Shown one piece after another: positions 56,509 to 59,276 of a stretch of DNA of 64,000 nt. This DNA comes from Corynebacterium coyleae. Its GTDB lineage: Bacteria > Actinomycetota > Actinomycetes > Mycobacteriales > Mycobacteriaceae. The first letter of the stretch is position 1. Each line of letters begins with the position of its first letter. A program made the position numbers and the translations under genes. The DNA lies in contig NZ_CP047198.1 in assembly GCF_030408635.1 (NCBI RefSeq), positions 1,488,001 to 1,552,000 on the forward strand. The letters run 5' to 3'. The notes below the pieces were generated by a model. That model had not been told where the DNA came from and ran no database searches. It was given only the letters and a program-made list of their open reading frames with translations.

Positions 56509-56793
56509 ATGAAGTATTTCGCAGCAACCTACACCTACGGCGAGCAAACGCTTGTCGACGACACCCGCCCCGCCCACCGCGAATTCATCTCCTCGCAACT
56601 CGCACTCGGACGCATCGTGGGATCCGGCCCTTTTATCGGCGTCAATCAAGCCCTAATCATCCTGCAACTGCCCGACACTGCCACTGAAGCTGATGCGGCG
56701 GCCGTGCTGGATCAAGACCCATACACGACCGCCGGCGCACTCGCAGCGCGCGAGATCCGGGAGTGGAACCCGGTGATGAATATCTTCGGCTAA
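56509..56793 (+). CDS. YciI-like small protein
   Basis: A 94-residue dimeric alpha+beta barrel protein of the YciI family, sometimes linked to hydrolytic or dehalogenase-like reactions but without a settled role. The start MKYFAATYTYGEQTL and the RPAHREFISSQLALGRIVGS segment (residues 20-39), with the conserved Arg-x-x-His, are typical. The frame stays open 200 codons upstream, but that is antisense to pgsA and cinA. It overlaps the convergent terC stop by four bases. Confidence 0.85.
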   Translation: MKYFAATYTYGEQTLVDDTRPAHREFISSQLALGRIVGSGPFIGVNQALIILQLPDTATEADAAAVLDQDPYTTAGALAAREIREWNPVMNIFG

Positions 56794-57965
56794 GCCTTCC
56801 TACCCCCACGCGCGACATCGAGGTGGGCGGTCTCGCGCGATCCCGTCGCGGTGTGATCGCCCTTGCCAGATGTCGCCGGATCGTCGATCCACTCAACATG
56901 GTGTCCGTGACGGTCGACCTTGCGGCGGTTGCCGTGGTCGTCGAAATCAATGTGGTACTGGTTTTCGTTCGGATCACGGACACCTGCCTTCACGTCAGCG
57001 CGGTCCTTGATCACCGAGGCAATCGCGGTGATCGCGAGCACGCCGACGATGATCAGCAGCGAGGCGACAGTGCCGACCTCCGGCACGTCGAGACCCTCGC
57101 CGCCATTGATGAACGACAGATTGTTCTCGTGCAGCGCGTGCAACAGCAGCTTCACACCAATGAAGCCGAGCACCACCGCGAGGCCGTACGGCAAGTACAC
57201 CAGACGATCCAACAGACCGTTGAGCAAGAAGTAGAGCTGACGCAGGCCAAGCAGTGCGAACGCGTTGGCGGTGAACACCAGGAACGCCTCCTGGGTAATG
57301 CCGTAAATAGCCGGGATGGAGTCGAACGCGAACATCACGTCGATGAACCCGATGGACAGCAGCGCCACAAACAGCGGGGTAACCGCGCGCTTGCCGGCCT
57401 GGGTAGCGGAAACGAGACGGTCTCCGTGGTACGAGCTGGTCACCGGAATAACCTTGCGTAGCGTCTTGACCACCATCATGTCGTTCGGATCCGGATCCTC
57501 TTGGTCCGTCACCTCGTCGTACACCATCTTGATCGCGGTGTAGATCAGGAAGGCGGCGAAGATGTAGAACACGTCCGACCAGGCCTCGATGATCACGGCA
57601 CCCAGCAGAATGAATACGAGACGGCAGATCAGCGCGATCACGATGCCGATCAGCAACACCTTTTGCTGATATGCACGCGGGATCTTGAACGCACCCATGA
57701 TCAGCGCGAACACGAACAAGTTATCTACCGACAGCGACAGCTCAGTGATGTAGCCAGTGAAGAACTGCATGCCGTGTTCGCCGTCCCACAGCCACCACAC
57801 GATCCCGCCGAAAATGCAGGCCATGGTCATGTAGAACAGGGCCCAGCCGCCCGATTCCTTCATCGTCGGCTCGTGCGGGGTACGCACGTGCGAGACGAAG
57901 TCAAAGATGAAAAATCCCAGGATCACCGCAGAGGTGATCAGCCAAATACTTAACGGCACATGCAT
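56790..57965 (-). CDS. terC: TerC-family membrane protein (Alx/MeeF-like, putative Mn2+ exporter)
   Basis: Integral membrane protein of 391 residues with about nine helices. The family motifs ELSLSVDNLFVFALIM (near 73-88) and FIDVMFAFDSIPAIYGI (near 212-228) carry the conserved acidic residues expected to bind metal. The last 80 residues form a His/Asp-rich cytoplasmic tail (DFDDHGNRRKVDRHGHHVEW) that could also bind metal. The ATG at 57965 has GGAGG upstream. Its 5' leader is a yybP-ykoY manganese riboswitch, and TerC relatives (Alx of E. coli, MeeF/MeeY of Bacillus) export Mn2+, so manganese efflux is more likely than tellurite resistance. Confidence 0.92.
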   Translation of the reverse strand: MHVPLSIWLITSAVILGFFIFDFVSHVRTPHEPTMKESGGWALFYMTMACIFGGIVWWLWDGEHGMQFFTGYITELSLSVDNLFVFALIMGAFKIPRAYQQKVLLIGIVIALICRLVFILLGAVIIEAWSDVFYIFAAFLIYTAIKMVYDEVTDQEDPDPNDMMVVKTLRKVIPVTSSYHGDRLVSATQAGKRAVTPLFVALLSIGFIDVMFAFDSIPAIYGITQEAFLVFTANAFALLGLRQLYFLLNGLLDRLVYLPYGLAVVLGFIGVKLLLHALHENNLSFINGGEGLDVPEVGTVASLLIIVGVLAITAIASVIKDRADVKAGVRDPNENQYHIDFDDHGNRRKVDRHGHHVEWIDDPATSGKGDHTATGSRETAHLDVARGGRKA

Positions 57966-57974
57966 GCGTTTAAT

Positions 57975-58000
57975 CCTCCGGTAGCAGAAACGACCGGAGG
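57975..58000 (-). promoter_or_regulatory. Hairpin that hides the terC ribosome binding site (riboswitch expression platform)
   Basis: On the minus strand CCTCCGGT (58000-57993) pairs perfectly with ACCGGAGG (57982-57975), which contains the GGAGG ribosome binding site. The loop is ten bases. The same CCTCC is the 3' strand of aptamer helix P1, so the two structures exclude each other. Confidence 0.8.
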
Positions 58001-58100
58001 TCTCCCCCACCCAAGTGGGCTGTTCGGACCGGGGCCATCACTTTTCGACGACACCGTGTTGACGATCCAGAACACTTCCGGGGTACTCCCCTCCAAGTGG
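57991..58100 (-). ncRNA. yybP-ykoY manganese riboswitch in the terC leader
   Basis: Reading the minus strand from 58100, the leader has the 5' P1 strand TTGGAGG, the conserved L1 core GGGGAGTA, a CGTCAACACGG segment, CCCCGGTC, the L3 core GGGGGAGACC and the 3' P1 strand CCTCC. These conserved pieces occur in the order expected of the yybP-ykoY class, which binds Mn2+ between L1 and L3. It directly precedes a TerC gene, the class's commonest partner. With Mn2+ bound, P1 forms and frees the ribosome binding site, so this should be a translational ON switch. Confidence 0.85.
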
Positions 58101-58105
58101 GTAAC

Positions 58106-58111
58106 ACAATA
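58106..58111 (-). promoter_or_regulatory. Probable -10 element of terC
   Basis: TATTGT on the minus strand at 58111-58106 would start transcription near 58100, exactly at the 5' edge of the riboswitch. A TTCGCG lies 18 bases upstream as a weak -35. Confidence 0.45.
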
Positions 58112-58135
58112 CACACACTTTTTTGGTGTCGCGAA

Positions 58136-58183
58136 TGTGGATAACCACCCCAGTTTGTTGATGCGTCAACGCGGTTATCCACA
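58136..58183. repeat. Inverted repeat of two perfect DnaA boxes
   Basis: TGTGGATAACC (58136-58146) and GGTTATCCACA (58173-58183) are exact 11-bp inverted copies, each containing the DnaA box TTATCCACA. The 26-base spacer includes a smaller dyad, GTTGA-TGCG-TCAAC (58157-58170). It lies between divergent terC and the HNH gene, just upstream of the terC -35 region. Confidence 0.8.
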
Positions 58184-58226
58184 AGGGCCCTGCCGGGCAT
58201 TGCGGAACTGGTTTAACGTGCGAGGC

Positions 58227-59276
58227 ATGAGCCCATTTGAAACCTTCCTCGCGGACCTACCCACGGTGGATAGCCTGCAAGGCTTCAACCGTGCAGCCGC
58301 ACTTGCCAGCCGCTGCCGGCCAGCAACCGTGACCGCCTGGGGCCGCATCCACGACGTCTACTTCGGCGCCACAAAGTGGACCAAGCAGCAGCGCCGAGCC
58401 CTGGAGGCGGCCCGCGCTGGCGCGTTCGATTTGGACCGGCTGTCGTACATTGAAAATCGCCTGACTGCAATCGACGATGAGGGCGAGCGTTGGCGCGTGC
58501 GCCACAAACTCCTCGCCGTCCACGGCAGCTTCGCCGCACTGCGCCAGGCCGCAAAAGACCTCATCCCACCCACGGCGCCGAGGATGCCGAAGGCACAAAT
58601 TACGTTCTCCTGCTCCACCCTTGGGATGCGGACGATGAGGGTCACCGCCTCCGAGCGAGACATCGCGGATCTCGAACACGCACTGCGCCAGCACGTGGAC
58701 AGCTCACGGCCCGCGGCACCACAGATGCTTGACGCGTTCTTGACATTGCTTCGCGACGGCACCTCCATCCCACACGCCGCTCCTCGCCCGATAGTGCTCG
58801 CACCGCTACCTGAGCACATCCGGATCCTCTCCGGCGACGGCGAGGATGTGACCCTCGTACTTACCGACGGCACCACCATGACCGGAGCCGAGTACCTCAA
58901 TCTCACCTTCGGTGAAATCGCCCTGTTCCACCCGCAAGCCGGGGCGGTGAACCTCTACCGGACACAGCGCTTCGCCAACCAAAAACAGCGCGACCTCGCA
59001 CGCCTGCTCATGCCTCGTTGTCCCTTCCCCTCTTGTCGTCATGGAGCTGACTTTTGCGAGATTCACCACATCACGGCCTGGAAGCACGGCGGAGAAACCA
59101 ACATAGATAACCTCGCACCCCTGTGCAGCTACCACAACCGGGTCAACGACGACGACCCTTGGCACACCAGTCGAGGGCGCATCGAAATCATCAACGGCAC
59201 CCCGACATGGGTCTCGCCAAGTGGTGTGCCGGTTCCCGTGACCGAAGCGGGGGCAATGCAGCAACTCTTCGGCTAG
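58227..59276 (+). CDS. HNH endonuclease with DUF222-like N-terminal region
   Basis: A 349-residue protein of the actinobacterial HNH family related to the mycobacterial 13E12 repeat proteins. The helical N-terminal 200 residues contain RLSYIENRLTAIDDEGERWR near 76. The C-terminal zinc-supported HNH domain reads CPFPSCRHGADFCEIHHI, then NIDNLAPLCSYHNRVN (about 267-312), with the His-His, Asn and His of the active site present. I used the ATG at 58227; the frame continues upstream through the riboswitch and DnaA-box region, which is surely non-coding. The biological role of these proteins is unknown, although phage or mobile-element origins have been proposed. Confidence 0.85.
   Translation: MSPFETFLADLPTVDSLQGFNRAAALASRCRPATVTAWGRIHDVYFGATKWTKQQRRALEAARAGAFDLDRLSYIENRLTAIDDEGERWRVRHKLLAVHGSFAALRQAAKDLIPPTAPRMPKAQITFSCSTLGMRTMRVTASERDIADLEHALRQHVDSSRPAAPQMLDAFLTLLRDGTSIPHAAPRPIVLAPLPEHIRILSGDGEDVTLVLTDGTTMTGAEYLNLTFGEIALFHPQAGAVNLYRTQRFANQKQRDLARLLMPRCPFPSCRHGADFCEIHHITAWKHGGETNIDNLAPLCSYHNRVNDDDPWHTSRGRIEIINGTPTWVSPSGVPVPVTEAGAMQQLFG

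Follow-up and report, generated by a model that had tools for sequence, protein, structure and literature searches.

The window analysed here is a 64,000-nucleotide stretch covering positions 1488001–1552000 of a 2.51-Mb Corynebacterium chromosome. On its minus strand lies terC (56790–57965), which encodes a TerC-family membrane protein of 391 amino acids that passed the Pfam cut-off for PF03741 (170.9 bits against 27.8; E=3e-50), and upstream of this gene, on the same strand, a candidate riboswitch element was located at 57975–58094. Relatives of terC were found at E≤1e-30 in 101 of the 101 Corynebacterium genomes sampled, and the nearest named ones, with 92–93% protein identity, include those of C. 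haemomassiliense and of strains HMSC05H05 and MSK008. A mechanically called HNH open reading frame on the opposite strand (57960–59276, +) begins within the terC leader; its true start probably lies further in, near 58227, so that it would share a divergent intergenic region with terC.

The sequence-only reading had proposed that the terC leader carries the conserved pieces of the yybP-ykoY riboswitch class, closed by GGAGG/CCTCC, and direct reading of the minus strand between 58111 and 57965 found every one of them, in the proposed order. Upstream of all of them is a −10-like hexamer, TATTGT (58106–58111), conserved in the genus as TANNNT, from which the transcript is predicted to start a few bases before P1. 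The aptamer then opens with the P1.1 5′ strand GGAGG (58090–58094), all five of whose pairs to the 3′ strand are standard in 100 of 101 genus loci, followed by the L1 5′ strand GGAGTA (58084–58089), a conserved loop of the class that is invariant in an alignment of genus leaders (A1, see below) and identical in the Escherichia coli alx and mntP leaders. Next come the P1.2 5′ strand CCCC (58080–58083), whose first pair is CG, UA or AU in A1, and the P3.1 5′ strand TGTTCTGGA (58066–58074). The L3 5′ strand together with the beginning of P3.2, CGTCAACACGG (58054–58064), falls in mostly invariant columns and reads CGTCATTACGA in alx, and the L3 3′ strand CGG (58029–58031), within the directly read segment CCCCGGTC (58034–58027), is invariant in A1. 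The P3.1 3′ strand TCCGAACA (58021–58028) covaries in A1 and is followed by a variable P4 hairpin region (58009–58019), whose length differs among the aligned leaders and whose putative pairs were left out of the covariance model R1 described below. The segment GGGGGAGACC (58008–57999), also read directly, holds the covarying P1.2 3′ strand GGGG (58005–58008) and the L1 3′ strand GAGA (58001–58004), part of a GAGACC that recurs in alx and mntP. Finally, the P1.1 3′ strand CCTCC (57996–58000), the switching strand, can pair with either 58090–58094 or 57975–57979; it lies in the anti-RBS strand CCTCCGGT (57993–58000), whose counterpart is the RBS strand ACCGGAGG (57975–57982), with the Shine-Dalgarno GGAGG at 57975–57979, 9 nt before the ATG at 57965.

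These arrangements are rare by chance: the window holds a single copy of the pattern GGGGAGTA...CGTCAnnACGG, which none of 100 shuffles contained, and a single copy of CCTCCGGT...ACCGGAGG, which turned up in 1 of 100 shuffles. The two loop signatures of the class, the L1 motif GGGGAGUA facing GAGACC and the L3 motif (G/A)UCGUCAnnAC facing CGG, are both present in the leader. The folding energy of the leader as a whole was unexceptional (z −1.47; 13 of 200 shuffles folded at least as well) and was dropped as evidence for a riboswitch, so the case is carried by conservation and covariation rather than by stability.

To describe this conservation, the regions upstream of terC were collected from 101 genus genomes (102 loci) and from 40 named loci, the two sets partly overlapping. 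Of the 102 loci, 101 carried the element, and each of the 101 Corynebacterium genomes had one such locus. It was missing only from a second terC paralogue (L171 of genome G058), which sits directly upstream of the riboswitch-preceded copy and whose contig ends ~115 bases upstream; no element was seen in those visible bases. Among the named loci, 36 of 40 carried the element, comprising all 31 from Corynebacterium and five of nine others (Micrococcus, Rothia, Glutamicibacter, Arthrobacter sp. S41 and Mobilicoccus), and those lacking it were two Demequina, another Arthrobacter and one Propionibacteriaceae MAG. All 101 Corynebacterium loci had a TANNNT box ending 6–16 nt ahead of P1; in a control stretch 100 nt upstream such a box was seen at 2 of 101, and four other control stretches gave 1–4 of 100–101. 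With a −10-like box just before P1 the transcript should begin at the aptamer, and for C. glutamicum the RNA-seq start is placed 6 bases from the Rfam boundary of the leader in PMC3890552.

The alignment A1 comprises 46 of 94 non-redundant Corynebacterium leaders; the choice favoured short loops, and A1 and R1 therefore hold only a minority of the long-loop and P2-bearing leaders. The aptamer was paired in 88.9% of cells, and both-side changes were found in 107 cells compared with 39.3 in shuffles, with 0 of 500 shuffles as high; for one of the five covariation measures, the number of further pair types, 38 of 500 shuffles were as high, so that it did not stand out clearly. The helices of the class were well kept, with 99.1% of cells paired in P1.1, 98.9% in P1.2 and 91.8% in P3.1, and P3.2 was poorly aligned (66.1%). 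Both-side changes affected 7 of 7 pairs in P3.1, 1 of 4 in P1.2 and 0 of 5 in P1.1 within the genus. The inner pairs of P1.2 were intact (3 of 3) in 97 of 101 genus loci and read TTC/GAA in loci L066 and L068, in which P1.1 is GTAAG/CTTAC; in L065 P1.1 is GCAAG/CTTGT.

Crystal structures of the class usually show a four-way junction that includes a P2 hairpin. No P2 hairpin or four-way junction was found in the window leader, where only 19 nt separate the L1 and L3 motifs, and such a short linker leaves little room for one. The corresponding distance, GGAGTA to CGTCA, is 17–22 nt in 87 of 101 leaders, the distances of 6 or 9 in four leaders being stray CGTCA matches. Because the alx leader, with 18 nt, has no more room, P2 was treated as optional and not as defining. 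Some relatives, for example C. amycolatum (L053), carry an extra hairpin between L1 and L3.

A search with the Rfam covariance model RF00080 was the check proposed in the sequence-only reading, which took the lack of a significant hit as refutation. When the search was run with Rfam 15, in which RF00080 ('Manganese') is the named family of the class, there was no match in the window at the gathering threshold, none even at E≤10 in 501 bases around the terC leader, and none in the whole genome of the strain; taken literally, this outcome contradicts the reading. In the genus, 0 of 101 genomes passed the cut-off and 36 of 101 had some match at E≤10; across 296 Actinomycetota genomes, one passed the cut-off and 24 had a match at E≤0.1. 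As positive controls, we used the mntP and alx leaders of E. coli K-12, both activated by Mn2+ in reporters according to PMC9603457. RF00080 scored mntP at 41.6 bits, below the cut-off of 45, and did not match alx at all when 241 bases were scanned at E≤10. Since alx was missed and mntP fell below the cut-off, the silence of RF00080 on the terC leader says little, and we read it as a false negative of a model insensitive to an alx-like subtype. In a control panel, 2 of 14 genomes passed the cut-off, one of which may be E. coli, and C. glutamicum was matched at E≤10 in one genome search and not in two others. A comparison of 20 genus leaders with the complete Rfam collection at E≤10 returned nine weak matches, all to unrelated families and none to RF00080; in the window, the weak matches to P15 and Ms_IGR-8 were far below gathering, unrelated, and set aside. 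The consensus structure of RF00080 is printed without P1 pairs, which, with the missed alx leader, suggests that the family may need a new seed.

The yybP-ykoY assignment for Corynebacterium was already in print by 2013–2014. Table 2 of PMC3890552 gives the leader of the C. glutamicum terC gene cg2157 as RF00080 with 49.13 bits and an RNA-seq transcript start (2013), along with two more C. glutamicum predictions (43.71 and 49.90 bits) that were unseen in RNA-seq. Two yybP-ykoY motifs appear among the mRNA leaders of a further C. glutamicum study (PMC4046766), and one yybP-ykoY at 49.16 bits is given for C. pseudotuberculosis 1002 (PMC3890534). The cg2157 5′-UTR thus shares genus, gene family and class listing with the window leader, and differs in that it was annotated with an older Rfam model and that its annotation in PMC3890552 comes with neither a switch mechanism nor an Mn2+ test.

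Class membership was evaluated further with R1, a covariance model built from Corynebacterium terC leaders only (46 of 94 non-redundant). In the strain's own genome, R1 scored 108.3 bits at the terC leader and 14.6 bits at the next site. It matched the E. coli alx leader with 36.9 bits (E=3.2e-10), with L1, L3, P1.2 and P3.1 in register, and it recovered 7 of 10 actinobacterial RF00080 loci at E≤0.01. The alx leader has GGGGAGTA, GATCGTCAnnACG, CCGGTC and GAGACC in the same order as the window leader and likewise precedes a TerC-family gene, but its P1 and expression platform differ in sequence and it is longer, with ~200 nt from GGGGAGTA to the ATG. The mntP leader, a translational Mn2+ riboswitch, shares the L1 pieces and is described as having an RBS hidden without Mn2+ (PMC11647493), but has a 28-nt spacer from GGAGTA to the L3 motif, precedes another gene, and scored only 5.9 bits with R1. 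Together, the L1 and L3 motifs, the covarying P1.2 and P3.1 helices and the match of R1 to alx support the proposed yybP-ykoY class. The kinship with alx also raises the question of the signal, because both alkaline pH and Mn2+ change the output of an alx reporter, most strongly in combination (PMC9603457); the same aptamer in Corynebacterium might then read a broader signal, such as alkaline pH together with Mn2+. We regard this as rather unlikely; the sequence, conservation and covariance-model results for Corynebacterium hold no pointer to pH.

Across the phylum, R1 found the element in 57 of 246 genomes (own genome included) and in 45 of 171 genera. A phylum set of 60 loci was formed from the 29 first-given loci and 31 other R1 matches, with the weakest matches left out, and the downstream open reading frames of 40 of the 60 loci were scanned. 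Thirty-two of these encode cation transporters, comprising 18 TerC proteins, eight P-type cation ATPases, four GDT1 antiporters and two Na/Ca exchangers; the remaining eight, which may be wrong picks because the reading frames were chosen mechanically as a long one near the element, comprise one M50 peptidase with a CBS domain, one DUF72 protein, one alpha/beta hydrolase and five without a match. Several unrelated divalent-cation transporters behind one element is how a metal riboswitch should look. The M50 peptidase with a CBS domain, which lies behind an element resembling the Mn2+ riboswitch at L206:1510–2833, is to our knowledge not a known partner of this class.

These results bear on whether the leader senses a metal at all. 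A conserved hairpin that hides the RBS could instead be a thermometer or a protein target and resemble yybP-ykoY by chance, and the RBS hairpin does lie within the predicted minimum-energy fold, while no Rfam family was matched above threshold. Such an element would hardly account for conserved L1, L3, P1.2 and P3.1 pieces that lie away from the RBS, for helices that covary, for a genus-derived model that finds alx, or for the recurrence of the element ahead of several unrelated cation-transporter families; we consider it very improbable.

The expression platform was then examined. The strand CCTCCGGT (58000–57993) can pair with the 5′ GGAGG as P1 or with ACCGGAGG (57982–57975), which holds the Shine-Dalgarno; the 8-bp complementarity of the P1 3′ strand with the RBS strand, proposed earlier together with a hairpin at 57975–58000, was confirmed on the sequence, the hairpin coordinates being exact. 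Within the genus, this hairpin was paired in 96.6% of cells over 46 leaders, with both-side change at 1 of 9 pairs. Because GGAGG is constrained anyway, this is weak evidence, and genus-level covariation was not taken as proof; a phylum-wide cognate test was used instead, in which each stem was scored against the downstream sequence of its own and of other loci, which controls for Shine-Dalgarno bias. Of the 60 phylum loci, 57 could be extracted (L224, L237 and L244 were skipped by rules) and the 55 with enough downstream sequence were used. The mean score was 6.79 for own and 5.40 for other loci, and 0 of 20,000 permutations were as high. This cognate match of the P1 3′ strand with the RBS strand across Actinomycetota, the anti-RBS strand pairing with its own partner, supports the translational switch that had been proposed for the window.

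The anti-RBS stem scored at least 7 of 8 in 31 of the 55 loci, in 19 different stem pairs, exemplified by CCTTCGTC/GACGAAGG, CCTCAGAC/GTCTGAGG and CCTCGAAC/GTTCGAGG. Of the other 24 loci, which scored below 7, some have on visual inspection a shortened or displaced hairpin and others no visible one; the own stem at least equalled every different stem in just 27 of 55 loci. A strict three-way swap, in which P1 and the RBS change in step from GGAGG to GAAGG, was borne out only partly: GAAGG occurs in P1 at 19 loci, and there the best partner strand ended in GAAGG six times, in GGAGG, where a G-U pair preserves the pairing, five times, and otherwise eight times. In Glutamicibacter, Arthrobacter and Micrococcus (L066:2355–2497, L068:2357–2497 and L060:2310–2476), a sequence resembling the 3′ strand of P1 lies in the RBS region: CTTACG in L066 and L068, CTCACG in L060. 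Its potential pairing with the 5′ strand of P1 suggests a different switch wiring there.

The two competing states were compared by predicted ensemble energies from a nearest-neighbour model without tertiary contacts, using 94 of the 101 genus leaders. By this measure, the RBS-hairpin state of the ligand-free window leader lay 11.3 kcal/mol below the P1 state, and it was the more stable one in 94 of 94 leaders (median 17.5, range 7.2–27.6 kcal/mol). A hairpin that is more stable without ligand fits an OFF default. The margin of ~11 kcal/mol means that the choice is probably kinetic and made while the RNA is being synthesized, and, the OFF state being far more stable in all 94 leaders, kinetic trapping would be needed.

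The same hairpin could in principle act on transcription. If output were mainly transcriptional, either the CCTCCGGT/ACCGGAGG hairpin itself or Rho acting on the untranslated leader would halt transcription at low Mn2+. The E. coli mntP riboswitch is linked to Rho in PMC11647493, and among 95 of the 101 genus leaders, 12 have at least five T within 10 nt after the hairpin, as in a terminator, and 26 have at least four. The 12 leaders, which include L133, L131, L145 and L132 and eight further ones, are those in which, judged by their sequence, the hairpin could double as an intrinsic terminator, so termination may be added there. In the window, however, no T-run follows the hairpin (ATTAAACGC), 69 of 95 genus leaders lack a run of four, and the Shine-Dalgarno GGAGG itself sits in the hairpin strand; a mainly transcriptional output thus appears a minority prospect for this leader.

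Collectively, we consider it highly probable that the terC leader works as an Mn2+ riboswitch of the yybP-ykoY class, one of the ON type whose expression platform is translational. The parts of the leader, their conservation and covariation, its class membership by model and the two competing pairings were observed here, and we infer from the class that Mn2+ is the ligand and the inducer, and likewise the docking, the direction of regulation and the kinetic control. In the proposed mechanism, transcription would begin just before P1. At high Mn2+, the ion would bridge L1 and L3 and lock P1.1 (GGAGG/CCTCC), so that the CCTCC strand would be occupied and the terC Shine-Dalgarno left free. At low Mn2+, CCTCCGGT would quit P1.1 and pair with ACCGGAGG, the resulting 8-bp hairpin masking the Shine-Dalgarno. 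Mn2+ would probably act during transcription and keep P1 closed ahead of any invasion by the RBS strand. In line with such a scheme, P1.1 is described as a co-transcriptional fulcrum in a transcriptional Mn2+ riboswitch in a 2024 study (PMC11087558), and the E. coli mntP RBS is reported to be masked without Mn2+ (PMC11647493). The Corynebacterium literature searched gave annotations only, and no earlier description of the P1/anti-RBS switch was found in it. The present analysis contributes evidence that the class assignment holds despite the negative Rfam result, together with phylum-wide support for the switch.

We also think it fairly likely, with less assurance than for the terC leader itself, that these loci represent an alx-like, P2-less Mn2+ riboswitch subtype that is Actinomycetota-wide and mostly missed by the current Rfam model. 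One strand would serve as both P1 and anti-Shine-Dalgarno and co-evolve with the RBS strand, the element would be put to use ahead of genes for TerC, P-type ATPases, GDT1 and Na/Ca exchangers, and in some Corynebacterium the hairpin may double as a terminator.

With regard to the gene, it had been argued from the riboswitch that terC is a manganese homeostasis gene and not a tellurium resistance gene. In favour of this, TerD (PF02342), a ter-system partner, had no match in the strain's own genome, and PMC10550928 ties TerC to Mn, reporting no evidence for tellurite transport. On the other side, a 2025 report (PMC12054061) describes a Klebsiella terC that contributes to tellurite and zinc resistance, so the blanket exclusion of tellurium is not secured. 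We infer an Mn-related function of the window TerC from its type of riboswitch and from what is published on other members of the family (PMC10550928), and the gene is likely not a tellurium gene.

The terC leader offers a compact switch in which both competing helices are legible straight from the sequence. Metal-homeostasis annotation is biased across the phylum, since the present Rfam model overlooks this riboswitch in all 101 Corynebacterium genomes sampled and, when its cut-off is applied, in all but one of the Actinomycetota genomes searched (295 of 296). For Corynebacterium, the finding suggests that a gene present in 101 of 101 sampled genomes, with a family name taken from tellurium, has a role linked to manganese.
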